Source: a virus. Taken from it: a stretch of 26,211 nt of DNA. The notes beneath the pieces are model-generated. The model saw only the letters and a program-made list of their open reading frames with translations, was not told the DNA's origin and ran no database searches. Location of the stretch: positions 1-26,211 of IMG/VR virus record IMGVR_UViG_3300009164_000314; one strand, given 5' to 3'. Within the stretch, counting starts at the first letter, position 1. Every line of letters starts with the position of its first letter. Position numbers and translations under genes: made by a program. Below are positions 9,157-23,763 of this stretch, piece by piece.

Positions 9157-10091
9157 TATCTATCTCCATAAAGTGTTGCACATCTATTCCACAGTCTGTG
9201 GGATGAGTATCCATTGTATGCCGTATCATCTAAATCTGTATAGTTCATTGCTGTCATGGTCATTCTCATATCGGGCTGAATCCATTTATCTGAAAATGTA
9301 GTATCTAAATCATATAATTTATTTACCTCTAGTGCTTTACCGCCGTAACCGCCCTGCCACCATAAATATGTTGATGTCTGACAGAAAAATGCTGTTGTAT
9401 TTGCTGGAATTGTCATTGTTCCAGTCCAAGTATAGTTAGAGTTTCCACCAGAACGATTTGCCATTGTTGTCCATGTCATTCCCGTAGCCTGTGAGTATAG
9501 TCTTCCAGCGCCAGTTGGAATTCCGTAGTACATTGCAGAACCTTCATATCCTTGTGCCCAGTAATTTGCATACCATCCAGAAAGTGTAATTGTTTTAGAT
9601 AGTGTTGGGTGAAAGTTTCGAATAAACATAGATCTCATTGAAAAACCCTGATATCCAGAATCTTCCATGTGGTTGTGAACCTGTCCTCCACCAACTACGT
9701 TTCCTCTTGCAAACTGTAAAACTGCTCCTGCACGATTATTTACAGATGAATATGAATTTGTATTTTGTCTATTATGACGACCTAGCGCCATATGAAAATT
9801 TCTTTCATGATCTGTAGTAGAGTTCATATAATTATAATATGCTCCCCATCCATCGCCAGACTGCCATGCACCTGACCAGATTGGGTTTCTATCATTAATA
9901 GTATAAATTGTTGGAATGTGATACGGGAATCTTGTTCCATCAGTTACTTCTCTAAATTCATTATCTATTCCAGTTTTAACTCCAAGTGAGGTTGGTGTAA
10001 TTCCAAGTGCCGATCCTGTTATTCCAATTGTTGCCATATCAGCGGCTTTTAGTCCTGACGATAATGTTAAGAGCGAGTCTAGTGATGCCAT
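9156..10091 (-). CDS. Putative receptor-binding tail fibre, 311 aa
   Basis: I place the start at 10091 (MASLDSLLTLSS), five codons inside the longer open frame starting at 10106. GGAGA lies eight to nine bases upstream, and the TAATG fusion with the Fn3 gene repeats the style of neighbouring junctions. A helical leader (1-60) precedes a segment (IPTIYTINDRNPIWSG) matching the equivalent segment of the 503- and 516-aa fibres (PTFATYSNRDNRPFW). After that the sequence differs but is equally rich in Tyr, Trp, Asn and Gly (SGYQGFSMRSMFIRNFHPTL, LSGWYANYWAQGYEGS). This suggests a common virion-attachment region with an unrelated or strongly diverged head. No catalytic motif was seen. The assembly chaperone gene follows directly. 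Confidence 0.7.
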   Translation of the reverse strand: MASLDSLLTLSSGLKAADMATIGITGSALGITPTSLGVKTGIDNEFREVTDGTRFPYHIPTIYTINDRNPIWSGAWQSGDGWGAYYNYMNSTTDHERNFHMALGRHNRQNTNSYSSVNNRAGAVLQFARGNVVGGGQVHNHMEDSGYQGFSMRSMFIRNFHPTLSKTITLSGWYANYWAQGYEGSAMYYGIPTGAGRLYSQATGMTWTTMANRSGGNSNYTWTGTMTIPANTTAFFCQTSTYLWWQGGYGGKALEVNKLYDLDTTFSDKWIQPDMRMTMTAMNYTDLDDTAYNGYSSHRLWNRCATLYGDR

Positions 10092-12742
10092 TATGCGATT
10101 CTCCATCCTTTTGCAGTATTTGAATATATTAATTTCATAGCTTTATTATTTACGTTAAAAATAAGGTCTTCTGCTACACCCTGAATTAATTCACCATTTC
10201 TAGCTACTGTAAAGAAGTTTGTTGATGCAGTTCCAGAGATGTCAATTATTTCTACAACGGCACCTATTCCAGGCCCCGCTGGAAGTGTTAAAGTTAGTCC
10301 ACCAACTCCACCACCAAGTGCTGGAGTATTAACAAAAACTCTATCTCTATTTACTAAAAGTTTGCTGGAAGTTAAAATTTGCCATGTATTATATCCAGCG
10401 CTTGCAGCTAAAGCTGATGCTGTTGCAATATCTGACACCTGACTTGAAATTGATGATTCTATAGAAGTAACTCTAGGGTTAATGTTATCGTATGAAGCTT
10501 GAAGAGTTGTGTATTTACTTGATAGGTTTGATACTGCTACTCCATTTGCCGTTCCATTAACAAGTGTAATTGCGGCTGATCCAGCACTTTGAATATTTGT
10601 AATTGCATTTGCGGTTGCCGCAACAACATCATCTATACCTAGAGCTTTAGATAATATTACTAAGGAGTTTGACAAATATAATATTTGTTCTGCATTTAAA
10701 GTTGAAGCGCTTAAAGCATTAATTTTTGCTTTAATTGTATCAATTTGATTTGATAAAGTAGCATAGTTAGCTGCGCTACCAAAATCTGTTGTAATAATAT
10801 TACTAGCATTTGATTGTTCACCCTCAGAAGCAGTTGTAATAGCTCTTACTTTAAAGGTGTAAGCAGTAGCTGGAGTAAGTCCTGTAACAAGAATTGGTGA
10901 TGTAGCTCCTGCGCCTGAGCCTCCAATTGGAGTCGATACAACTGTATATCCAGTAATTGTTTGTCCGTTAGTTACGGTTGGTGCGGTAAATGTAAGTGTT
11001 GCAGTTGTTGCGCCTGTTTTTGCAGCTACTCCAACTGTTGGTGGTCCTGGTGGGGCAGTATCTGTAGTTATGCTACCGCTTGCTGCTGATTGGGGCCCAG
11101 TTCCAACTGAGTTAATTGCTGATACTTTAAATGTATATGATGTTGCGGGAGTTAATCCTGTAAAAGTAATTGGTGATGTTGTTGATGTGGCAATAACTCC
11201 ACCAGGAGTTGACGTACCAAGGTAGCCAGTAATTGTTGTTCCGCCATTTGATGCTGGTGCTGTAAATGCAAGAGTTGCGGTTGAAGATCCTGTTTTTGTA
11301 GCAGTGCCAACTGTTGGCGCACCTGGTACATAAACGTCTGTAGCATCTGTTGTTACGCTATTACTTGCTGCTGATTGTGCACCGTCTCCAACAAAGTTAG
11401 TAGCTACAACTTTAAATGTATAAGCTGTTGCTGGAGCTAATCCATTAATTGTAATAGGTGAGGCTGATCCAGTAGCAACAATATTTCCTGGAGTTGATGT
11501 AACTGTGTAACTAGAAATTGATGCTCCACCTGTTGACGCTGGTGCTGTAAATGCAACCCGTGCTGAAACTGAAGATAATTTTACAGCTGATCCAATTGTT
11601 GGGGCTCCAGGTACAGTGGCATCTGAAGTAATTTGATTACTTGCTGAAGAAGCAGCAGATGTACCAGCTGAGTTAGTTGCTGTTACAGCAAATGTATACG
11701 CAGTTGCGGGTGTAAGCCCCGTAATAGTAATTGGAGATGCTGATCCTGTAGCAGTAATTCCGCCAGGTGTTGATGTTACCGTATATCCCGTTACTGCTGC
11801 TCCGTTATTTGCTAATGGTGGGCTAAATGAAAGACTTGCAGTTGTTGAACTTAATTTTGTAGCTGTGCCAACTAATGGGGCTGAAGGTGCTGCTGCATCT
11901 GTAGTTATCTGATTACTTGAAGATGAGTTAACGCCCGAGCCTTGGGAGTTTGTTGCTAATACTGTAAATGTGTAGTCTTGCCCAGGTGTCAGTCCTGTAA
12001 CAGTAATTGTTCCGCTGCCTGCTTGTGATACAGATCCCGTAATTGCACCTGGTGTTGATATAGCTGTGTATGAAGTAATTGCAAAGCCACCATTTGATCC
12101 TGGTGCAGTGTAAGCAACAGTTGCAGTTGTTGAACCAGTCTTTGTTGCAGTACCAATTGTTGGTGCACCTGGAGCATTTGGATTTACGTAATCTGTAGTT
12201 ACTGCATTACTTGCCGCTGATGGACTAGAAGTTCCAATAGGGTTTGTAGCTGTAACTGTAAATGTATATTGTGTTCCAGAAGATAGTCCTGTAAAGTTAA
12301 GTGGTGATGATGTACCAGTTGCGGTTATACTGCCAGGCAAAGATGTTGCTGTGTACCCAGTGATTGCTCGTCCACCATCTGATGTTGGTGCAAAAAATGT
12401 AAGTGATGCCGTTGATGTTCCAGTTTTTGTAGCCGTTCCAATTGTTGGTGCATCTGGAGCTGCAGAATCTGTAGTTATGCTATTACTTGGAGAAGACGGC
12501 CCTGAAGTTCCATCAACATTTGTAGCTGTAACTGTAAATGTATAAGCGGTATTAGGACTTAGTCCTGTAACAGTAATAGGAGATGTTGATCCTGAAACAG
12601 AAATATTTCCAGGAGAGGACGTAGCTGTATAGCTAGTGATTGTCTGTCCACCATTATTAAGTGGTGCTGCAAATGCAACAGTTGCTGTTGTTGTTCCTGT
12701 TTTTGTAGCGGTGCCAATAATTGGAAGATCTGGTGCTGCCAT
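10091..12742 (-). CDS. Seven-Fn3-repeat tail protein with helical and beta C-terminus, 883 aa
   Basis: Seven tandem fibronectin type III domains of about 90 residues fill 1-92, 95-184, 188-282, 285-374, 377-466, 471-561 and 564-653. Each opens like APGAPTIGTATKTG and contains a TITGYTVTSTPG core, SPITVTGLTPATAYTFTV and a closing S-ASN-ITTD. Residues 660-780 are helical and share the INALSASTL module with the 110-aa protein at 8406-8738. Residues 785-883 form a beta module (WQILTSSKLLVNRDRVFVN, LTLTLPAGPGIGAVVEIID, ending KGWRIA) often seen at fibre tips. The Fn3 repeats are probably an extended stalk on the virion; such domains often aid adhesion. GAGGAG six bases before the ATG is the ribosome site. 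The repeats are recognisable at DNA level, so recombination could change their number. Confidence 0.85.
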   Translation of the reverse strand: MAAPDLPIIGTATKTGTTTATVAFAAPLNNGGQTITSYTATSSPGNISVSGSTSPITVTGLSPNTAYTFTVTATNVDGTSGPSSPSNSITTDSAAPDAPTIGTATKTGTSTASLTFFAPTSDGGRAITGYTATSLPGSITATGTSSPLNFTGLSSGTQYTFTVTATNPIGTSSPSAASNAVTTDYVNPNAPGAPTIGTATKTGSTTATVAYTAPGSNGGFAITSYTAISTPGAITGSVSQAGSGTITVTGLTPGQDYTFTVLATNSQGSGVNSSSSNQITTDAAAPSAPLVGTATKLSSTTASLSFSPPLANNGAAVTGYTVTSTPGGITATGSASPITITGLTPATAYTFAVTATNSAGTSAASSASNQITSDATVPGAPTIGSAVKLSSVSARVAFTAPASTGGASISSYTVTSTPGNIVATGSASPITINGLAPATAYTFKVVATNFVGDGAQSAASNSVTTDATDVYVPGAPTVGTATKTGSSTATLAFTAPASNGGTTITGYLGTSTPGGVIATSTTSPITFTGLTPATSYTFKVSAINSVGTGPQSAASGSITTDTAPPGPPTVGVAAKTGATTATLTFTAPTVTNGQTITGYTVVSTPIGGSGAGATSPILVTGLTPATAYTFKVRAITTASEGEQSNASNIITTDFGSAANYATLSNQIDTIKAKINALSASTLNAEQILYLSNSLVILSKALGIDDVVAATANAITNIQSAGSAAITLVNGTANGVAVSNLSSKYTTLQASYDNINPRVTSIESSISSQVSDIATASALAASAGYNTWQILTSSKLLVNRDRVFVNTPALGGGVGGLTLTLPAGPGIGAVVEIIDISGTASTNFFTVARNGELIQGVAEDLIFNVNNKAMKLIYSNTAKGWRIA
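10780..12742 (-). repeat. Seven imperfect ~270-bp tandem repeats encoding Fn3 domains
   Basis: The repeat units correspond to the seven Fn3 domains of the 883-aa protein. The codons for GTATKTG, SPIT-TGLTPATAYTF and ASN-ITTD recur with moderate nucleotide divergence, about every 270-285 bases. Confidence 0.8.
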
Positions 12743-12754
12743 TTTATACTCCTC

Positions 12755-15700
12755 TTATGCCTGAGCTTCTGTCCAAGATAAACGAGCTGAAATATCTCCA
12801 GATGTTAGTCCTAGGTTTGTTGCAACGATTGTTAAAATATCTGGACCATTTGGGAATCCTGGAGCTTTGTAGTTTCCATCTCCTGAAAGAATTGATGTTC
12901 CAAGGTCTTTAACCTTTGACAAATCAAAGCTGGTTGCTGAATAGTTTGTACCACCAGTACCGTCGGTATAGAAAGCAAATGCCTGATCTCCACCTCTAAT
13001 TGTTGTTATTGGGCTAGTTACTGTAGAACCTGTCTTTCCAGTACCATCGTGATAAATAACTTGAGCTAGTGATCCTCCAGCTACTCTAATGTTTTCCCAG
13101 TCATTTGGAAGAGTTACTCCAGTTGGGAACGATGAAGGATTATAAATACCCTGAATCAAAAATGCTCCTTGAGCAAGAATACCTAGCGAGCTAAGTGATA
13201 ACTGCATAGTATTTAATGTTTCTCTCTTGCCATAATTTCTTCCAATTCCATTATCTGCAGATGGTGCAATTCTAATTGAAAGAAGTGGTCTTGCAACCGC
13301 TGTTGTACCAAAGCTTTGAGAAACGGATCCTTGTGGAGTAACAATACTTGATGCTATTGTTGTTGCATTGGATATTGAGTATTGAATAGTATTAGATGTT
13401 ACTGCGCTTACTGTAAATGTTCCATTGAATGTTGTTTTTTCAACTGCTGTTGCAGCTGTTTGTGCTTGTGCCGTATATCCATAAACTCCAGCAAGGATAA
13501 CTTCAAATGTATTTGATGCTGGGGTTGCTGATATAGTCCTATCACCATTTAAAATAGTAGTAACTGCAGTAGATTGAATTTGACCATTTTGAAGATTTCT
13601 AGATAATGCAGTATTTGATACTGTTACAGTTTGACCTGTGTAAAGACCGTGTGCACCTTGAGTTGTAACTAATATTGTAGATGCAGAAGTTCTTTGAACG
13701 CTTGTTATTGCTGCTGAGGTATTAACTCCAGTTACAATAAGTGGGTATCCCACCTGTACTTGGTGATTTGAAGCAGTTGTTAATGTTGCAACAGATGAGG
13801 ATGCTGACTTTGAAGAAATTTTTGCAATAACTTCACCTGAACCTGCAACGTTTACGAATCTCTGCATACCAGCGGTAAAGATAAAGTTCTTATCATCATC
13901 AAACTTGCCGTCCATAATAACAGATGATCCCCAGTGTGAAATAACTGGAGCACATGTATTTGTAATTGTTTGAACAGAAACTTGTGCAATTCCAGTTCCA
14001 TTTGTAATTGTATTATCTGGAAGATATGTTGCATTATTTGATGATCCAGACAAAGTTACAGCTTGTCCTTGTAGATAAGAAGTCATCGGCTGTCTTCTAT
14101 TTATATTAACAGGGTAACCTTGTGCAATTTCATTATATGCTGTATCAGTAATTGTATAAGAACAAATTTCAAAATTACTTGTATCTTTTATTACTAAGAA
14201 TCCTGAAGTTGGCCAAAATTTAACGCTATCAACATACATAACAATCATTGATGGTGCTAATGGCGATCCAACTATTCCTGAAGATCCCGCCTTTAACTTT
14301 GTGCTAAAGAATGGTGAGTTAATTGCTTCATATCTTGCTGGAAGGTTTCCAGAACGCATGTAAGCTTCTGTATTTCTATTGTTATTAGGCATCTTGTGGC
14401 AATAAACAATATTTCCTTCTGTACCTCTAAAACCAAATCTAATAAATCCTGCACCGTACCAGGTGTAGTCAACATAGGCCATCTGCATTAATGCAGGGTC
14501 TAGTGTATATCCTGAAGGGCCTTTCCCATCAAGTCTATCTACGTTCCACTCAGTTTGAGGAACTCTAATTTCTTGAGTCAAAACATAAGAAGAGTTAGTT
14601 ACGGAATCTCCCTTATATGCTGGAGTAACCTTTAAGTTAGTATCTGATGCAATTTCAATAACACTATAATTTGCTCCCTTAATTACAATCTGGTCTCCAA
14701 CCAATAACTGCTTTCTAAATCTTGTATTTATGCCAGTAATTGTATTTGAATACTTGGTTGCAGCAATTTTACCAAATAAATCTTTCTTGGTAAATCTTCT
14801 GACGGCATAAAGATATGTCCCATCATATTCAAGGAAGAATCCGTTTTGATCATTGAACATACCAGTTCTTGTTGCGGCACCTTCCCACTTATAAACAGTA
14901 ACTGAAACATCAACTCCTCCTGGGAATTGATCTGTAGCAGTTAAGTTTTGTGTAAGTGGCATAATATACTGGAACTCATTTGTTCCTAATACATTTGTAA
15001 CTACAAACTTACCATTCCATGGGTTGTATGATCCTGCTGTAACAACTCCATCTACTTTAATTTTTGCTCCTGGTTGCATTCCATGATCTTGAAGTGTTTT
15101 TACAGTTACAACTTGATTTCCAATTAAAACTCCTGCAACAGCAATGCTATCTACGTCAAAAGTAGGTGTAAATTTTACACCAGTAGAGAATTGAATTGAT
15201 TTTCCTGATTGATATCTAAAAGCACGACGTGTTTGACGAATAACTCTTACACCACAAACATTGTCTGTTGTTGAAAGAATAACTCCTCCATCATGTGGTC
15301 TATGCTGTACATATCCGTTTGGTTTTGTATAAAGTCCTACTCCATTTGTAATAATTGGATTAGCAACTTGTGAAGTCATTTTAAATTTCATTTGGTTTGG
15401 AGATGAAACGTTAAATATTCTCCAAGAACCTTTGATTGAGCAATTTTCGTTTTGGCTTCCGATTAGAATTGGAGTTCCTGGAAGAAGTCCATGTGCTGTA
15501 CTTGTTGTAATTGTAATTGTAGACTGAGCTGCACCATCTGATTGAGCAGTCCATCCTTGAAGTCCTACTGCATCGCTTCCACCTGGGATATGTGCATTGT
15601 CATAAATTCCTCCGCCTGCTATGGATGTAAGGCTTCCATTTGAAATAGCTCCAGAAACAACTCCATTTGCTAAATATGTAAATGTAAAACCATCTGTGGA

Positions 15701-16315
15701 TACTGTTTCAACTGGGAAAGTTCCTTCAGCTAAGGGGGAAGATGTATCTTGAATTGAAATAACATCGCCTGCAACAAGATCTGTTGCTGGGCTAGAAACT
15801 ACGCAAGTTATTGTAGATCTTGGTGAAACACCATCACCAGTTACGCTTGTTACGTCAAATGAGTTTCCGCCTGTTGCTCTAGAAAAGAATGATGGATAAT
15901 TTGATGTTAAAACTAAAGCTTCCCACTTAGAGCTCTGAACACCATATTCAAAGTCTGTATCCATTAAAGATTGTGGCGGAGCAACTCTTAGTTTATTTAC
16001 TGCATCCATAAGTGGTTCTGTAAATGTTACTGTTTCTGCTGGCTCGTCAACAATAATTGCAAGTTGATCTGTAGAAGCCATGCTTGCACAGTTATATTTA
16101 AGAGTAATTATTGTTTTTGGCTCGTAGCCAAGTGTGTTGTCAATTGCAAAAGCGGTAGCGCCTAGGTTAGTATCGGAGAAATTGTAGATAACCTTGCCTT
16201 GGGTGGTATTTGTGATAAGCATCAATCTATCTTGTCTTACTATTCTTGGAATAGTAATTTGATTAGTGCCTGGATTAAATACGTAGTATGCGTGTTCTAT
16301 TTGTCTTCTTGCCAT
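12755..16315 (-). CDS. Large virion structural/tail protein, 1186 aa
   Basis: This is the largest gene of the window. Residues 1-95 are beta-rich (IEHAYYVFNPGTNQITIPRI). Residues about 103-132 contain LRVAPPQSLMDTDFEYGVQS followed by SKWEAL, and about 362-382 contain RAFRYQSGKSIQFSTGVKF. I associate both with long structural proteins of T4-like cyanophages and related marine phages. A short motif of the form T-x-HGL-x-x-G-x-x-(I/V) recurs at about 270, 409, 848 and 888 (for example HGLLPGTPILIG and HGLYTGQTVTVSN), each followed by a tail like FTVSAVTSNTIQYS, so small beta domains are repeated. The middle (YTWYGAGFIRFGFRG) and C-terminal parts are also beta-rich. It is probably a fibre or baseplate-associated protein; no enzyme motif is visible. 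AGGAG precedes the ATG. Confidence 0.75.
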   Translation of the reverse strand: MARRQIEHAYYVFNPGTNQITIPRIVRQDRLMLITNTTQGKVIYNFSDTNLGATAFAIDNTLGYEPKTIITLKYNCASMASTDQLAIIVDEPAETVTFTEPLMDAVNKLRVAPPQSLMDTDFEYGVQSSKWEALVLTSNYPSFFSRATGGNSFDVTSVTGDGVSPRSTITCVVSSPATDLVAGDVISIQDTSSPLAEGTFPVETVSTDGFTFTYLANGVVSGAISNGSLTSIAGGGIYDNAHIPGGSDAVGLQGWTAQSDGAAQSTITITTSTAHGLLPGTPILIGSQNENCSIKGSWRIFNVSSPNQMKFKMTSQVANPIITNGVGLYTKPNGYVQHRPHDGGVILSTTDNVCGVRVIRQTRRAFRYQSGKSIQFSTGVKFTPTFDVDSIAVAGVLIGNQVVTVKTLQDHGMQPGAKIKVDGVVTAGSYNPWNGKFVVTNVLGTNEFQYIMPLTQNLTATDQFPGGVDVSVTVYKWEGAATRTGMFNDQNGFFLEYDGTYLYAVRRFTKKDLFGKIAATKYSNTITGINTRFRKQLLVGDQIVIKGANYSVIEIASDTNLKVTPAYKGDSVTNSSYVLTQEIRVPQTEWNVDRLDGKGPSGYTLDPALMQMAYVDYTWYGAGFIRFGFRGTEGNIVYCHKMPNNNRNTEAYMRSGNLPARYEAINSPFFSTKLKAGSSGIVGSPLAPSMIVMYVDSVKFWPTSGFLVIKDTSNFEICSYTITDTAYNEIAQGYPVNINRRQPMTSYLQGQAVTLSGSSNNATYLPDNTITNGTGIAQVSVQTITNTCAPVISHWGSSVIMDGKFDDDKNFIFTAGMQRFVNVAGSGEVIAKISSKSASSSVATLTTASNHQVQVGYPLIVTGVNTSAAITSVQRTSASTILVTTQGAHGLYTGQTVTVSNTALSRNLQNGQIQSTAVTTILNGDRTISATPASNTFEVILAGVYGYTAQAQTAATAVEKTTFNGTFTVSAVTSNTIQYSISNATTIASSIVTPQGSVSQSFGTTAVARPLLSIRIAPSADNGIGRNYGKRETLNTMQLSLSSLGILAQGAFLIQGIYNPSSFPTGVTLPNDWENIRVAGGSLAQVIYHDGTGKTGSTVTSPITTIRGGDQAFAFYTDGTGGTNYSATSFDLSKVKDLGTSILSGDGNYKAPGFPNGPDILTIVATNLGLTSGDISARLSWTEAQA

Positions 16316-16327
16316 TTTATATTTCTC

Positions 16328-16948
16328 CTAAAATAAATAACTTGTTGCTGCAAATTTACTGTTTAGCTCGGTCTGAGTTAAAGTACTTGTATACTTTGGA
16401 TAATATAGACCTAGGTTTAGCATTGCGTCTACCCTGGCTACCGTTGTTTCACTAAGTATAGCATTAGCCAGTTCATTGCCAGAAGGACCTGTTGGACCTG
16501 TTGCTCCAGTTAATCCCTGTATTCCTTGTGAACCTCTAATATTTCCTTGTAATGTCCAAGTTGCTGATGCTGAATTATATTGAAACCAATCGCCTGTTGT
16601 TGTATTTAAATAATTATCTAAACCTAATTTACCCGCTGGGTTTGATGATGTTGGATTAGCAATTCCAGTGTAGTTATATGAACCTCTTTGTCCCGCCGTT
16701 CCTTGTGGACCCGCTGCACCTGCAGCACCTACTGGACCTTGTGTTCCTGTAGGTAAACTAAAATTTAATACTGCTGCTGAGGATGTTCCGCTATTTACAA
16801 CAGTTGGTGTTGATCCTGAAGGAAGTGTTGTAACTGTGCCAACAGAAACAGTTGCTGCGGCTCCTGGAAGTCCTTGAGGACCTTGTGCTCCTGGACGTGA
16901 TCCTGCTACTACAACCCAGGCCGTACCATTCCAACGTTTTAATGACAT
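16328..16948 (-). CDS. Collagen-like tail fibre protein, 206 aa
   Basis: Three short Gly-X-Y segments (residues 20-31, 68-89 and 139-157; for example GTQGPVGAAGAAGPQGTAGQ and GLTGATGPTGPSG) are separated by a VSVGTVTTLPSGSTPTVVNS / AAVLNFSLPTG beta module and by a KLGLDNYLNTTTGDWFQYNS segment, both standard in phage fibres. The N-terminus (MSLKRWNGTAWVVVAG) is a usual attachment motif; the C-terminus is helical (ARVDAMLNLG). It probably forms a trimer through the collagen triplets. Proline is mostly in the X position, with one GLP. It has its own TATAAT box and a GGAGG ribosome site nine bases before the ATG, and it begins a short transcription group with the 1186-aa gene. Confidence 0.85.
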   Translation of the reverse strand: MSLKRWNGTAWVVVAGSRPGAQGPQGLPGAAATVSVGTVTTLPSGSTPTVVNSGTSSAAVLNFSLPTGTQGPVGAAGAAGPQGTAGQRGSYNYTGIANPTSSNPAGKLGLDNYLNTTTGDWFQYNSASATWTLQGNIRGSQGIQGLTGATGPTGPSGNELANAILSETTVARVDAMLNLGLYYPKYTSTLTQTELNSKFAATSYLF

Positions 16949-18799: not shown

Positions 18800-19450
18800 C
18801 TATAGGACTTTAGATACCTGTCCTTGATATCTACTATGATCTTTATGGTTTCTGTCGTTATATGAAAACATTGTTACCGCAGAATACTTTATTCCCGACT
18901 TTACTGGCAGTGCCGCATGTGAAAAAAGATAGCTCGACGGGAACAACACAATGTCTCCGTATTGAGGAACATAGGTGTAGTCAAAATGAGGAAAATACAG
19001 CTCTCCTCCTTCATAGTCGCTATTTAAATACATAACCGTAGAAACGTCACAAGAATAGCTTGGTCCGCTATCTGGATGTGTTTTAAAATGCTGCCCTTCT
19101 CCGTAACGAACAAAATTAATTGCTTCCATGTAGTGTAGGGTGTTAATATTATATTCTTTTGTATAGTCGTCTAGGCACTCTTTAAGCTTTTTGGTTATTT
19201 GATCATGTATTGATATGACTTCGTCTGAAAGATCATTTCCTGGCCTTAAAGAATCTCTTCTAATTTTAAAATCAACACAATCTCTATAATCTAATTTTTC
19301 TACATTATCTCCGACTTTAGCAATAGACCACTTAAACATTGAGCTTTTTTCTGAACTCAAAACGTTTTCCAGTCTTTCTGGGATATTCATTGCCTCTGGC
19401 AAAGCGTTTCTATATATTTTTATTCCTACTGTGGGAATGTCAATTATCAT
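18800..19450 (-). CDS. 2OG-Fe(II) oxygenase, prolyl 4-hydroxylase-like, 216 aa
   Basis: I place the start at 19450 (MIIDIPTVGI), where AAGGAG stands five bases upstream; the longer frame to 19486 has no such site and would overlap the upstream gene. The C-terminal half is a double-stranded beta helix with all expected residues in this numbering: HxD at His125/Asp127 (GQHFKTHPDSG), distal His178 (YLFSHAALPV) and Lys188 (SGIKYSAV) to bind 2-oxoglutarate. YLNSDYEGGELYFP and GDIVLFPSSY are classic P4H-family segments. It should be an active dioxygenase hydroxylating a protein or small molecule; the substrate is unknown. The neighbours are two similar-fold but ligand-poor proteins, a GNAT-like protein and fibre genes, so a virion protein substrate is plausible. 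Such oxygenases are frequent in cyanophages and other aquatic phages. Confidence 0.85.
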   Translation of the reverse strand: MIIDIPTVGIKIYRNALPEAMNIPERLENVLSSEKSSMFKWSIAKVGDNVEKLDYRDCVDFKIRRDSLRPGNDLSDEVISIHDQITKKLKECLDDYTKEYNINTLHYMEAINFVRYGEGQHFKTHPDSGPSYSCDVSTVMYLNSDYEGGELYFPHFDYTYVPQYGDIVLFPSSYLFSHAALPVKSGIKYSAVTMFSYNDRNHKDHSRYQGQVSKVL

Positions 19451-19467
19451 AATTTCTCCTTGTTCTA

Positions 19468-20058
19468 CTATATTAAAGGCATCCACTTTTGTGAATACTG
19501 ATTTTTTATTTCTGATAATGGGCTTACGTAAAACACTATTGATTTAAATTTATTGTAATAAACAATTTTATTTCCTGCCTCTGAAACTATAATGTCTCCA
19601 GGACCTATCTCAAACTCCATGTCGTTAATTAAAACTTTTGATTTTTGTAAATCTAGGGAAATTATTCCAAACATTGAGGGCCTTGATGTTCCTCCAGCAT
19701 CATACCAGAAAGAAGGGTCTTGGTCTTCAACCAATGAGGAATAAATAAAATATTTATTTTTTGAATAACTAAACTCATGTTCTTTACAAACATTTTTTAT
19801 TAAAGAAACAATCTTCTGAAAAAGAAAATACATCTGCTCGTCATGCATAAAAAATGGATTATAACTATTTTTATTATATACATTAACAATTTTTTCCTCA
19901 GAATTGGGAAAGTTATAAATTTTTTCAGATTTATTTAATTCATTTATTATTTTTTCATAAAGTCCCGTTGTGTCAAAGTTATCTTTAGATAACATTGTTT
20001 TTCTTTTTTCTCTATAGATAACATTTTCGTTTTTATTTTGAGTATACTCGTTAATCAT
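19468..20058 (-). CDS. Cupin/2OG-fold-like protein without evident metal ligands, 196 aa
   Basis: The start at 20058 (MINEYTQNKN) is preferred over the longer frame from 20088, because GAGG stands six bases upstream. The gene overlaps the preceding stop by eight bases. The N-terminal 100 residues are helical and Lys/Asn-rich. Residues 105-180 form a beta-helix-like series: YSSLVEDQDPSFWYDAGGTS, MFGIISLDL, VLINDMEFEIGPGDIIVSEA, SIVFYVSP. The order is that of a cupin or 2OG oxygenase core, but I see no HxD pair and no distal His at the expected points. I therefore call it a fold relative and not an enzyme. It could be a partner of the oxygenase next door, or it could act on its own without metal. 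AT content is higher here than in the fibre genes. Confidence 0.65.
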   Translation of the reverse strand: MINEYTQNKNENVIYREKRKTMLSKDNFDTTGLYEKIINELNKSEKIYNFPNSEEKIVNVYNKNSYNPFFMHDEQMYFLFQKIVSLIKNVCKEHEFSYSKNKYFIYSSLVEDQDPSFWYDAGGTSRPSMFGIISLDLQKSKVLINDMEFEIGPGDIIVSEAGNKIVYYNKFKSIVFYVSPLSEIKNQYSQKWMPLI

Positions 20059-20581
20059 TTTTAACCTCAACATAAGAAACTCCAACAATTAATTCTCCAG
20101 AAGATACTTCAGAAATTCTATAAGCATACTCTTCTAAAGATGGGAAAATTATAAGATTTCCTTTCAATAAAGGAATAGAAAGATTTTTATTTAAAAAGGT
20201 AATATTTGAACCAGGGTGGTTATCATTTACAACATAAATAATTGATAGAGTATCTCTTAGCCCTGGATTAAGAAATTCTTGTGCGTATGATGTTTCTGGG
20301 GATATTTTTAAAAACACATTTTCAATTGGGAAAACAAAAGAAAGAGACTTGTCATGAAGATATGAGTTTATTTCAGAAATAAAGCTAACGTATAATCTTC
20401 TGTTTTCTAAATTTAAATTTCTTAGATTTGTTGTTTTAATCACGCCTTCTTTAAAACCATTTACTCTGTCTATCCATGAGATCTCTTCAAAGCTTGAAAG
20501 CATTTGCTGAAGTGCTAAATCATTTATATATGAAAAATCATAAAGATTTATTTCATGTTGCGAAAATATTTTATTAACCAT
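20051..20581 (-). CDS. Degenerate 2OG oxygenase-like protein, 176 aa
   Basis: The start is taken at 20581 (MVNKIFSQHE) because AGGAGG stands five bases upstream. The longer frame to 20650 would overlap the upstream gene by 77 bases. The C-terminal half follows the P4H-family pattern: ENVFLKISPETSYAQEF, then DTLSIIYVVNDNHPGSNITF, LLKGNLIIFPSLEEYAYRIS, GELIVGVSY. Where the iron ligands should be there is no HxD (near AQEFLNPG), and the distal His is replaced (EYAYR). It therefore looks like an inactive relative of the intact enzyme at 18800-19450. It could be a pseudoenzyme scaffold, or the family could have diverged to a non-catalytic role. It overlaps both neighbours by eight bases, so it is probably co-translated with them. 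Confidence 0.65.
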   Translation of the reverse strand: MVNKIFSQHEINLYDFSYINDLALQQMLSSFEEISWIDRVNGFKEGVIKTTNLRNLNLENRRLYVSFISEINSYLHDKSLSFVFPIENVFLKISPETSYAQEFLNPGLRDTLSIIYVVNDNHPGSNITFLNKNLSIPLLKGNLIIFPSLEEYAYRISEVSSGELIVGVSYVEVKND

Positions 20582-21122
20582 TTTTTCCTCCTGCTCTGTG
20601 CCCGTGCCAAATATTTGGATAAACGGGATCCCTTGGTGGATTGATATCAAACAAAGATATAGCAGATCTTTGCTCTACTGGAATTTCTTTTATTTCTTCA
20701 TTACACATAGCTTTTGCTTTACATGTAGCTGATTCAGTTTGCATGCTTCTATCTAAGGGCACATCGCAAAGTGCATCTAAATACTCATAAAATATTGTTC
20801 TTCCAATTAAGCCAAATGCTGGAAGAAGTCCCTTCTTTCTATATTTTGGCTGAATATACACTCTTTCATTCATTAAGTTTTTATTAACTGTTGCGTATAA
20901 ATCTGGATATTCTGTTGGCAAAAAATCTGAGACAACAACTGTATTTTCTGGATGAGTATTATTAAAATAAACACAAATTACATACTTTACTTGCGCTAGG
21001 TTATCTAATTTTGTTACATGTATCCAGGAGCCTTTTAGCTCTTCTGGCATTGAAGAAAATATTGGAACAGAATACTCCCCAACTGGCTTCATGCCAATAA
21101 CATTATATTGCGCTTGAGTCAT
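20574..21122 (-). CDS. GNAT-like N-acetyltransferase-related protein, 182 aa
   Basis: The centre (residues 86-115, ERVYIQPKYRKKGLLPAFGL then IGRTIFYEYL) resembles GNAT motif A, the strand-turn-helix that binds acetyl-CoA pyrophosphate. Here RKKGLL stands in place of the ideal R-x-x-G-x-G/A. A strand before it (VKYVICVYFNN) suits motif D. The C-terminal 60 residues are polar with two Cys and end in HGHRAGGKNG, which is not typical of GNATs. It could be an acetyltransferase, but with only motif A to go on I give moderate weight. The ATG at 21122 is 20 bases inside the end of the Hint gene; ATG at 21092 is a weaker alternative without a ribosome site. Confidence 0.55.
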   Translation of the reverse strand: MTQAQYNVIGMKPVGEYSVPIFSSMPEELKGSWIHVTKLDNLAQVKYVICVYFNNTHPENTVVVSDFLPTEYPDLYATVNKNLMNERVYIQPKYRKKGLLPAFGLIGRTIFYEYLDALCDVPLDRSMQTESATCKAKAMCNEEIKEIPVEQRSAISLFDINPPRDPVYPNIWHGHRAGGKNG

Positions 21123-22281
21123 GGGTTAGCATCCTTTCAGTAAAGAACATATCGTATGGTTCGCAGTTTATGGAAATAATATCGTGTGGCACCTGAACTA
21201 TTTCATACAAATAGATAGGTTCCCAACTGCTGGTGTCATATGAGTATACCAAATCAGTTTCTTTAACTACATTTACGGAAGTCTCAAATTTAGAAATTCC
21301 GTTTCTTTTAATTAAAATATAGTGATATTGAGAAAATATATCTTCATTAATTACGACTGCGTATGCAGATTGTGTTTTATATATGTTAGCTATTGTTGTA
21401 ATTTCTGGAATAATATTAGGATTGCTATCTGACCAAGCAATAGCTTGAGCCGTTACACCTTCTGCGCTTTCGTATGGGAATCCTTCAATATTTACAGATA
21501 AAAGAGTATCACCTACTTGCAAGTCTCCTGCTTTTACAAGTCCGTCTGTTGTTCTAACTAAAGTCGTAATTCCAACACTTTTACTAAATCCAAAATCAAA
21601 TAAAGCGCTTAGGTCTAGGTTTGTTAAATCTCCTGAACCTCCAAAAAGTGGTGTATCAAATGCTGGTTCGTTAAAAGCTGGTTGAAATCCTGGGTTAAAT
21701 CCTGGGCTAAATCCTGGGCTAAATCCTGGGCTAAATCCTGGGTTTGAATTATAAGATATATTAAATGCTGAAATAAGAGGAACTCTTCCATTATAAATTT
21801 GAATATTTCTGCTGCCTTCTCCACTCAAAGAAAATGTTATTTGATTTGAACTTGCACTCCAGCTTCCATATGCAATGTTTGTTCCATCTACAGCAATATT
21901 TGTAGGAAAGGTAACAAAACTTCCATTAATTGTTACAGTAGATCCGTTCCAACTTGAAGAAGATACTGATGAATCTTGTGGAGGGTCGGGAACATAAAAT
22001 CCTGGGTTAAATCCTGGATTAAAGTTAGGTGGTGCAACATAATTATAATAAGTAAAAGGAACTTGAGACCCTATTAAAACTGTAGTGCCTGCTGGTATTC
22101 CTTGATCAACTATATTTAAATTTATTCCAATGTTACTTGTAGTGGAAGGGGTTTCTATCCAAGAAAGACCAACTGCTGATAGAACTGATTGAGCTTGACT
22201 TTGAGTTAATCCAGATAGGTTAGGAACATTTACTCTTACAACACCTAGTAAGCTAAAAAAATTTTTCTTGGCTCTTGCCAT
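21103..22281 (-). CDS. PASTA / beta-sandwich / PGF-repeat / Hint multidomain protein, 392 aa
   Basis: Residues 19-80 form a PASTA domain (VPNLSGLTQSQAQSVLSAVG, then VDQGIPAGTTVLIGSQV). Residues about 105-178 are an Ig/IPT-like beta domain (TVTINGSFVTFPTNIAVDGT). Proline-rich (N/S)PGF repeats lie at 86-95 and 179-200 and flank it. Residues 232-388 are a Hint (intein/hedgehog-type) domain: TTDGLVKAGDLQVGDTLLSV at the start, YHYILIKRNG with His320, and CEPYDMFFTERMLTHD at the end. The first catalytic position (five residues before Thr240) is Ser235, not Cys, and the usual final His-Asn is His387-Asp388, followed by only four residues. Self-cleavage may therefore be altered or lost. PASTA domains typically bind peptidoglycan, so it could be a cell-wall-binding virion protein. 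It is followed by the GNAT-like and oxygenase genes. Confidence 0.75.
   Translation of the reverse strand: MARAKKNFFSLLGVVRVNVPNLSGLTQSQAQSVLSAVGLSWIETPSTTSNIGINLNIVDQGIPAGTTVLIGSQVPFTYYNYVAPPNFNPGFNPGFYVPDPPQDSSVSSSSWNGSTVTINGSFVTFPTNIAVDGTNIAYGSWSASSNQITFSLSGEGSRNIQIYNGRVPLISAFNISYNSNPGFSPGFSPGFSPGFNPGFQPAFNEPAFDTPLFGGSGDLTNLDLSALFDFGFSKSVGITTLVRTTDGLVKAGDLQVGDTLLSVNIEGFPYESAEGVTAQAIAWSDSNPNIIPEITTIANIYKTQSAYAVVINEDIFSQYHYILIKRNGISKFETSVNVVKETDLVYSYDTSSWEPIYLYEIVQVPHDIISINCEPYDMFFTERMLTHDSSAI
21685..21744 (-). repeat. Five 12-bp tandem repeats encoding (S/N)PGF
   Basis: Five perfect or nearly perfect 12-base units (plus-strand consensus AAATCCTGGGCT) encode the tetrapeptide repeat in the Hint protein; the three middle units are identical. 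Two more units lie at 21997-22020, before the beta domain. The in-frame length suggests slippage could vary copy number. Confidence 0.9.
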
Positions 22282-22284
22282 TTA

Positions 22285-23763
22285 TTACACAGCCAAATCT
22301 CCAAAAGCGACCCAGCTATTTGTGCCTCTTTTGATTATAGTTGCGGCAGACCACTGTGCTCTGAGCTTTAAACCTGGTGTAGAATTAATTGTAAAACCAT
22401 CTCCAGCAATTGTTACTTGAGAAGTTCCAGTTTGAAGAACTTCAAATGTTGTTCCAACGGGAAGAGATGCTGAATCTGTTATTGTAAGTGTTCCTCCACC
22501 TGACATTTCAATAATCTGTCCCATGTCCATCAAGACTGGCGTATAAGATCCAGTTTTAGCAACAAACTTTTGTAAATTACTTGAATTTTCAAATAAAACA
22601 ACACCTTTCATGGTTTCATGAAATTGACATACATAATAAAGTTGTGGAGCAGAAGCAGGCAATAAAATTACTATTTGTCCCGCATCTGTTCCTGAATTTT
22701 CTATTCCAGTAGTGTAAACATTTGCTTGGGTGTATGCTCCATAGGAAGTTTGAAACCAAAAAGGATGTCCTGGTGCTTGTATAGAAATTCTATAAGGTTT
22801 TCCAGGTGCAATAGTTATTGGTCCATTTAAAACTCCATTTACAAGGTATCCACCCGTTCCGCTATTAAAAATTTGATAGTCTAAAGCTGGTTGTGTTTTT
22901 TGTACATAATCCCTTGCAGCTACTGTTGAAGTTAAATATGTACTTGCTGCATCAGTTTTTTGTAAATAATCAGTAACTGCAGTTGCAGTGCTTAGTTTTG
23001 TTCCCAAAGCGGATGTAACTGTAGATGCAAAACTTTGATCATTATTTATTGCTGCTGCAAGCTCTTTTAAAGTATTTAAGGCAGCTGGAGCAGAATCTAG
23101 TACATTATTAAATACTACGGTTGCTGCTGCAGTAGCTGTTGTATCGGCATATGTTTTAGTAGATATAGTTGACGTATCTACCGATATTGCACCCGTTGTA
23201 TCATTATAAGAAAGTCCTGATCCTAAAAAATTTCCTATTGCATCTTGTGCTCTTTCATCTGTAAAATATTTATTAGTTGTGCCTTCTGCTAAAAAGTTAG
23301 TTGTGCTTGGAATTTCACTATCTCTTGCAATAGAAGATGGAATTTCTGAATCTGGTATTTTGCCATCTGGTCCCAAAGATGCAACTCCATCTGGATTTCC
23401 AATATCTGCTATTGAAACATAACCAGAAGCAGGGTTTGTTAAAGTATTGCTTAAACTTGTTGTTGTTATTACATCTGGCCCAGTTGAAAGACTAATACTA
23501 TTATTTGTGTCATTATAAGATACAACTATATTTGAATGTGTTCCCGCAGATAATGCTGCTGCTACACCATCTTGTGCTATTTCTTGAACTTCCGCAATTG
23601 GTGGTGTTAAATATGGCAAAGCTGACCAAATATTAATTCCATTTCCTGCTTTTACTTTATTTAAAGTTGTGTCAATTCCAAGCTCGCCAGAATCTAAAAT
23701 CTTGGTAGATGAGTTCCATTGAGTAGTTGTGCCTCTTCTTATTTTTATTTTAGATATTGGCAT
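22285..23763 (-). CDS. Tail fibre with Mtd_N-like head and cupredoxin domain, 492 aa
   Basis: The N-terminus (KIKIRRGTTTQWNSSTKILD, then GELGIDTTLNKVKAGNGINI) is the major tropism determinant N-terminal-like head shared by many phage fibres. Residues 75-200 hold two YNDT repeats and KIPDSEIPSSI. Residues 221-257 repeat the TLKELAAAINNDQSF module of the 587-aa fibre. Residues about 302-392 match the cupredoxin fold with an apparently complete type-1 copper set: His333 (APGHPFWFQT), Cys379, His382 and Met385 in YYVCQFHETMKGVV, the C-x2-H-x2-M spacing known from amicyanin. Residues 400-492 are a common fibre-tip beta module ending TNSWVAFGDLAV. It is probably on the virion surface; copper binding is inferred from residues only. 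The start is fused to the upstream stop (TAATG). Confidence 0.8.
   Translation of the reverse strand: MPISKIKIRRGTTTQWNSSTKILDSGELGIDTTLNKVKAGNGINIWSALPYLTPPIAEVQEIAQDGVAAALSAGTHSNIVVSYNDTNNSISLSTGPDVITTTSLSNTLTNPASGYVSIADIGNPDGVASLGPDGKIPDSEIPSSIARDSEIPSTTNFLAEGTTNKYFTDERAQDAIGNFLGSGLSYNDTTGAISVDTSTISTKTYADTTATAAATVVFNNVLDSAPAALNTLKELAAAINNDQSFASTVTSALGTKLSTATAVTDYLQKTDAASTYLTSTVAARDYVQKTQPALDYQIFNSGTGGYLVNGVLNGPITIAPGKPYRISIQAPGHPFWFQTSYGAYTQANVYTTGIENSGTDAGQIVILLPASAPQLYYVCQFHETMKGVVLFENSSNLQKFVAKTGSYTPVLMDMGQIIEMSGGGTLTITDSASLPVGTTFEVLQTGTSQVTIAGDGFTINSTPGLKLRAQWSAATIIKRGTNSWVAFGDLAV

Follow-up and report, generated by a model that had tools for sequence, protein, structure and literature searches.

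Hint domains are known from inteins, Hedgehog processing domains and bacterial intein-like domains (BILs), and BILs of type A carry Cys1 and a His-Asn end. BILs occur in variable secreted proteins, in which the Hint domain brings about cleavage and not splicing (PMC7664689, PMC7765530). In class 3 inteins, the active site is a Cys-His-Thr triad, the nucleophile of which is Cys107 in the engineered gp41-1_WCT (PMC7664689). Phage fibres can carry Peptidase S74, which acts as their intramolecular chaperone (PMC7824862).

The presence of a Hint domain in a phage tail protein has itself been annotated before, in Phage NCTB (“putative phage tail protein, contains intein domain”). Homologous jumbo-phage proteins, which make up PHROG 38766, are also carried by Alexandravirus, Rivsvirus and fHe-Yen9-02; Alexandravirus entries read “virion structural protein” or “tail protein,” and across these three groups the terms “virion structural protein” and “tail fiber protein” are used. 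The jumbo-phage Hints follow collagen-like fronts and have Cys1 (where the profile alignment begins later, this residue was read from the sequence just outside it), a T-x-x-H motif, the block-F Asp, and a His-Asn end that is usually followed by Thr. The cultured jumbo-phage homologues keep this full set of residues, from which it is plausible that the ancestral Hint module was autocatalytic. In NCTB, a free-standing Hint gene without an N-extein (L136:4435–4896, plus strand) lies directly after the tail gene that bears the complete Cys1/His-Asn Hint, and it has Tyr at the position of the block-B His and retains His-Asn. Within the open literature (subscription papers were outside the scope), we found no paper on Hint domains in phage tail proteins or on their processing, and no description of a Hint clade of the Ser1...Asp type, to which the protein described below belongs.

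The 392-residue protein and its genomic neighborhood

The window, i.e., the whole stretch of DNA analyzed here, is 26,211 nt long and corresponds to positions 1–26,211 of the IMG/VR record IMGVR_UViG_3300009164_000314. A preliminary description, made from the sequence alone, had proposed that one of its ORFs joins a PASTA domain, a beta-sandwich, PGF repeats and a C-terminal Hint domain. The ORF was confirmed: it starts at an ATG at 22281 and encodes 392 residues (Table 1). The PASTA assignment also stood, as residues 17–76 matched Pfam PF03793 with an E-value of 6.7e-7 and 29.6 bits, above the curated cut-off of 23.2, and the PGF repeats are real, forming two tandem arrays with a period of 12 nt. 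The residue numbers that had been given for Ser235, His320 and His387-Asp388 were all correct, as was the four-residue tail, SSAI, which is followed by the stop codon. Residues 104–178 (approximately) had no match in the domain libraries; an IPT/Ig-like beta-sandwich, judged by eye, is plausible here, and close relatives have a Cys-containing module in its place. Overall, the data support a tail protein of the cell-wall-binding (PASTA) type, with a C-terminal Hint domain that is altered at its first and last positions.

Table 1. Features of the putative adhesin gene and its neighbors in the window.
Feature	Position	Strand	Evidence
Upstream tail-fibre gene, Mtd_N-type N-terminus	22285..23763	-	Pfam PF18454, E 1.7e-10; tail-fibre PHROGs
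PASTA-IPT/Ig-like-PGF-Hint protein, 392 aa, putative phage tail adhesin	21103..22281	-	ORF; relatives in viral contigs; tail-gene neighborhood
PASTA domain, residues 17–76	22054..22233	-	Pfam PF03793
First short NPGF repeat	21997..22023	-	Tandem repeat, period 12 nt
Putative IPT/Ig-like beta-sandwich module, residues about 104–178	21748..21972	-	Sequence, judged by eye
(N/S)PGF tandem repeat linker	21670..21744	-	Period 12 nt, 6.2 copies
Hint domain, residues 235–388	21118..21579	-	Profile matches to BIL 2lwy and gp41-1 intein; hhalign to jumbo-phage Hints
Ser235, intein/Hint position 1 (Cys in jumbo-phage relatives)	21577..21579	-	Ser in 67/67
His320, block-B His of the (S/T)-x-x-H motif	21322..21324	-	His in 67/67
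Ser370, block F position 4 (Asp in canonical Hints)	21172..21174	-	Alignment counts
Asp388, position of the terminal Hint/intein Asn	21118..21120	-	Asp in 63 and Asn in 4 of 67
Next gene, GNAT-like, 182 aa; start codon overlaps the His387-Asp388 codons	20574..21122	-	Repeated weak Pfam matches
2OG-Fe(II) oxygenase, intact-looking	18800..19486	-	Pfam PF13640, E 8.5e-14

In 44 of 66 loci, the gene that immediately follows the Hint gene was the GNAT-like one. Among 14 members of its family, five matched Acetyltransf_7 (best E-value, 4.6e-4) and four matched Acetyltransf_1, and its product is possibly an acyltransferase that acts on the adhesin. Of 60 loci, 26 had a 2OG gene no more than 3 kb downstream of the Hint gene, and prolyl hydroxylation of the proline-rich repeats is a possible role for it; the two proteins are candidates for the modification of a repeat-rich adhesin. 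Two further minus-strand regions, 19468–20088 and 20051–20650, adjoin the oxygenase gene and look like its degenerate relatives. Elsewhere in the window, the minus-strand genes at 10091–12742 and 16328–16948 encode tail proteins, in which seven FN3 repeats and a collagen-like segment occur. The gene at 12755–16315 (minus strand) encodes a structural protein of 1186 residues with approximately 39% identity to virion proteins of cyanophages (S-RIM44, Syn1), a resemblance that places the window near the T4-like cyanophages.

Hint identity and the family of relatives

When single sequences were used, the Hint region gave no Pfam match above threshold; Hint_2 appeared only below threshold (best, 0.002, in the sequence L148), and the Hint_2 profile had no match in the whole 26-kb record. 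The single-sequence PDB search returned a marginal match to the bacterial intein-like domain 2lwy (E 0.16), and the corresponding search against phages was too weak to place the region. The profile of the family matched 2lwy in the PDB with an E-value of 3.9e-7, and a broader profile matched the gp41-1 intein with an E-value of 6e-4, with Ser235 falling on intein position 1 and Asp388 on the terminal Asn. When the Ser1 family was aligned with the jumbo-phage Hints by hhalign, the probability was 98.9% and the E-value 2e-17, and PHROG 38766 was matched by 25 of 34 family members (best, 5.6e-10). By these profile comparisons, residues 235–388 are a relative of the Hint superfamily, as the preliminary description had supposed.

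Two scans of viral contigs recovered 56 and 80 loci, mostly from the same contigs, and three more scans added others. Related architectures were found in more than 50 viral contigs, and the architecture is therefore not a product of chance. The relatives comprised 84 distinct domain sequences, 67 of which, from viral metagenome contigs, belong to a Ser1 group that falls into 27 clusters at 70% identity, with a median pairwise identity of 37%. In the tree, the Ser1 group formed a single clade apart from the other sequences, with a support of 99/93. This Ser1...Asp clade is a large group of lake phages that had no earlier name. The seeds that collected most of the family include the motif INCEPYDMF, so that the invariance of this motif is partly built in; Ser1 was in no seed of the two main scans, and for the divergent members the His and Asp also lay outside the seeds. 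An alignment that left out INCEPYDMF had no segment of sufficient conservation to serve for a scan.

Across the family, the Hint domain is constant and C-terminal, and the front of the protein is a mosaic. The fronts included one or two PASTA domains, PASTA with PGF repeats, PASTA-like domains with HYGGF repeats, FN3/Ig-like domains with GAF repeats, and Pro-Val repeats, so that the variation lies in PASTA, FN3 and Ig-like domains and in repeats made of Pro, Phe and Gly. When only the N-terminal part was used as the query, in search of adhesins without a Hint, a single contig matched, and it was already known. One genome scan detected no relatives in bacterial or archaeal genomes, and in that collection there is therefore no link to prophages. 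Most records contained one copy and a few contained two. Two Ser1-type Hint adhesins are encoded on the plus strand of one such phage (L191:2080–4383 and 13273–14841), one with two PASTA domains and Cys-rich modules, the other with FN3 and FTPFSVF-type repeats. In another phage, which has a Ser1-type copy, the second Hint protein (L190:2815–4458, plus strand) has an FN3-like front with FAPPNFF repeats, and its Hint starts with Cys1, carries Gln where the block-B His would be and ends in Asn; this Hint is probably inactive.

The active site of the Ser1 clade compared with known Hint systems

The preliminary description had noted an altered active site at Ser235 and Asp388. Both changes are real, but they are not private to one phage and instead define the clade of 67 relatives; the list was also incomplete, in that the replacement of the block-F Asp by Ser370 had been missed. 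Position 1 was Ser and the block-B residue was His in all 67 sequences, the motif of the latter being S-x-x-H in 60 and T-x-x-H in 7. Block F position 4 was Ser in 62, Thr in 4 and Cys in 1, in comparison with Asp in 15 of 17 jumbo-phage sequences. The last Hint position was Asp in 63 sequences and Asn in 4, preceded by His (28), Tyr (28) or Phe (11) and followed by G (27), S (25), N (5) and then others. The C-terminal tail after the Hint was 2–16 residues long in all relatives but one, in which it had 42 residues.

The jumbo-phage tail Hints are homologous to those of the Ser1 clade, likewise form the very last part of tail proteins that are rich in repeats, and share with them a W, a T, a GD and a PYD/PFD motif. 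The Ser1 clade differs from them in its Ser1, S-x-x-H, block-F Ser and (H/Y/F)-Asp end and in its PASTA, FN3 or Ig-like fronts. BIL domains provide the best solved-structure match to the family profile (2lwy), but the clade has Ser1 and Asp where type A BILs have Cys1 and His-Asn, and it occurs in the context of a phage virion. The gp41-1 intein, of class 1, matches with position 1 and the last residue in register, and of the class 1 features, the Cys or Ser at position 1 and the block-B motif are present in the clade. In contrast to this intein, the domain is not inserted in a conserved host protein from which it could be spliced, the C-extein is negligible, the last residue is Asp, and the class 1 set of block-F Asp, terminal His-Asn and Cys, Ser or Thr at +1 is not kept. 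The Hedgehog Hog domain is similar in that an N-terminal part is followed by a C-terminal Hint able to transfer that part to an acceptor; the window's protein has no sterol-recognition region and stops four codons after Asp388. Peptidase S74, which sits at the C-terminus of repeat-rich tail proteins, removes itself and uses a catalytic Ser, is only a functional analogue; its Ser-Lys chemistry differs, its fold is unrelated to Hint, and the Pfam search gave no S74 match.

Possible autoprocessing and the alternatives

Judged from the alignments, the adhesin of this T4-like freshwater phage carries a constant C-terminal Hint with a remodelled, conserved active site, which would consist of Ser1, Ser-x-x-His, Ser at block F position 4 and Asp in place of the terminal Asn. 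The preliminary description had suggested that self-processing at either end would free the PASTA part or crosslink it, with a structural cap as the alternative. We favor autoprocessing at Lys234-Ser235 over a dead structural Hint, with a rough probability of 0.45. In such a reaction, Ser235 would attack the Lys234 carbonyl as His320 protonates the amide that leaves, and this N-O acyl shift would link the N-terminal adhesin part to the Hint domain through an ester. Water might then resolve the ester, or an acceptor with an amine or hydroxyl group, located on the virion or the cell surface, might do so; the PASTA/PGF part would thereby be released or transferred. Catalysis itself, the place of cleavage, the nature of the acceptor and a function in assembly or attachment are all inferences. 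By analogy, the chemistry could be Hedgehog- or BIL-like, or could resemble the S74 chaperone in fibre assembly, without membership in any of these groups. Splicing is not expected and appears unlikely, because the sequences have no terminal Asn as a rule, no conserved +1 nucleophile and only a short C-terminal tail. Against autoprocessing, three of the positions that are normally catalytic are not as in the jumbo-phage relatives, in that Ser replaces Cys1, a Ser, Thr or Cys replaces the block-F Asp, and Asp replaces Asn; furthermore, Ser1 is generally slower than Cys1.

The joint loss of Cys1, the block-F Asp and the terminal Asn is also what would be expected of a catalytically dead Hint that has been kept as a C-terminal cap, a trimerisation aid or a virion-attachment module, in which Ser, His and Asp would form a buried hydrogen-bond network needed by the fold. 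This is the most serious alternative, and we regard it as tentatively possible. Dead-looking Hints do exist in the wider family, and several clearly non-catalytic residues are as invariant as the active site: G247, G257, W283, T295 and L385, which are likely structural, also had no changes on the tree of the 67 sequences. Invariance alone is therefore no proof of catalysis. However, on the same tree, which has a summed length of 37 changes per column, we counted no amino-acid changes at Ser1 or the block-B His and one at the terminal Asp/Asn, whereas the neighboring columns varied (12 changes at position −1, 29–30 at positions −2 to −4, and 10 at position 2). The Ser1 codons were TCN in 51 sequences and AGY in 16, with at least four switches of class on the tree; a neutral site would rarely stay Ser through such switches, which points to selection on serine itself. 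One phage (G027) has Gln at the block-B position in its second Hint copy, and the solo Hint of NCTB has Tyr there, so that folding alone need not keep the His, and its presence in every member of the Ser1 clade is the more telling. The strict retention of Ser1 and His thus weakens the structural-cap explanation. Position −1 was never Pro, although Pro accounts for 13% of the 11 residues before it, and the Hint region of the window's subgroup had a median dN/dS of 0.11, indicating strong purifying selection.

A bolder form of autoprocessing, which we consider rather unlikely, is that the loss of the block-F Asp and the change of the last Asn to Asp amount to the relocation of an acid. Ser1, His and Asp would then constitute a phage-specific Hint class that forms an ester on the adhesin and transfers it covalently to the virion or bacterial surface, with fronts swapped freely.

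Ser370 and Cys373 led us to consider a class 3 intein as well, Cys373 being three residues past the class 3 position. Related to this is the possibility that the pocket is a hydrolase or acyltransferase, built on Ser-His-Asp or on Ser370 and His and working in trans, or else on an ester at block F, much as the class 3 triad does. Ser370 occupies the block-F position at which class 3 inteins have their nucleophilic Cys, and it lies 18 residues ahead of the final one; Cys107 has the same spacing in gp41-1_WCT, which is 125 residues long. Block F position 4 is Ser, Thr or Cys throughout the clade, and an acid reappears at the last position. However, the class 3 Trp at His+2 is replaced by Ile, Met, Leu, Val or Phe, a Thr two residues before the end is found in only 28 of 67 sequences, and position 1 is still a nucleophile. 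The class 3 assignment was rejected, and such an enzyme is possible at long odds.

It is very improbable that the His-Asp end and tail of the window's subgroup are kept only by the overlap with the ATG of the next gene, making the altered last residue a by-product: CATGAC does hold that start codon, and the overlap occurs in 17 of the 63 Asp-ended sequences, but the other 46 (Tyr-Asp, Phe-Asp or His-Asp) keep Asp without it, which largely refutes the overlap as a general cause. For His387 and SSAI in the window's subgroup it is a possible cause, and the overlapping start may constrain part of the His-Asp-Ser-Ser-Ala-Ile end there. In the 17 overlapping sequences, the window's among them, the ATG could by itself preserve Asp388 along with His387 and SSAI, which limits the argument for autoprocessing from conservation.

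A large clade of phage tail adhesins that joins one constant, coordinately remodelled Hint to exchangeable adhesive fronts would mean that virions employ the intein fold structurally and not as a parasitic element. If the Ser1-clade Hint is dead, the intein fold would have been reused as a virion part with its active-site residues kept. If it is active, it would be a natural Ser1...Asp autoprocessing domain, of use both for mechanistic work and as a tool. Should the covalent-transfer reading be true, these phages would have a means of attaching their adhesins covalently while the front domains are swapped freely.
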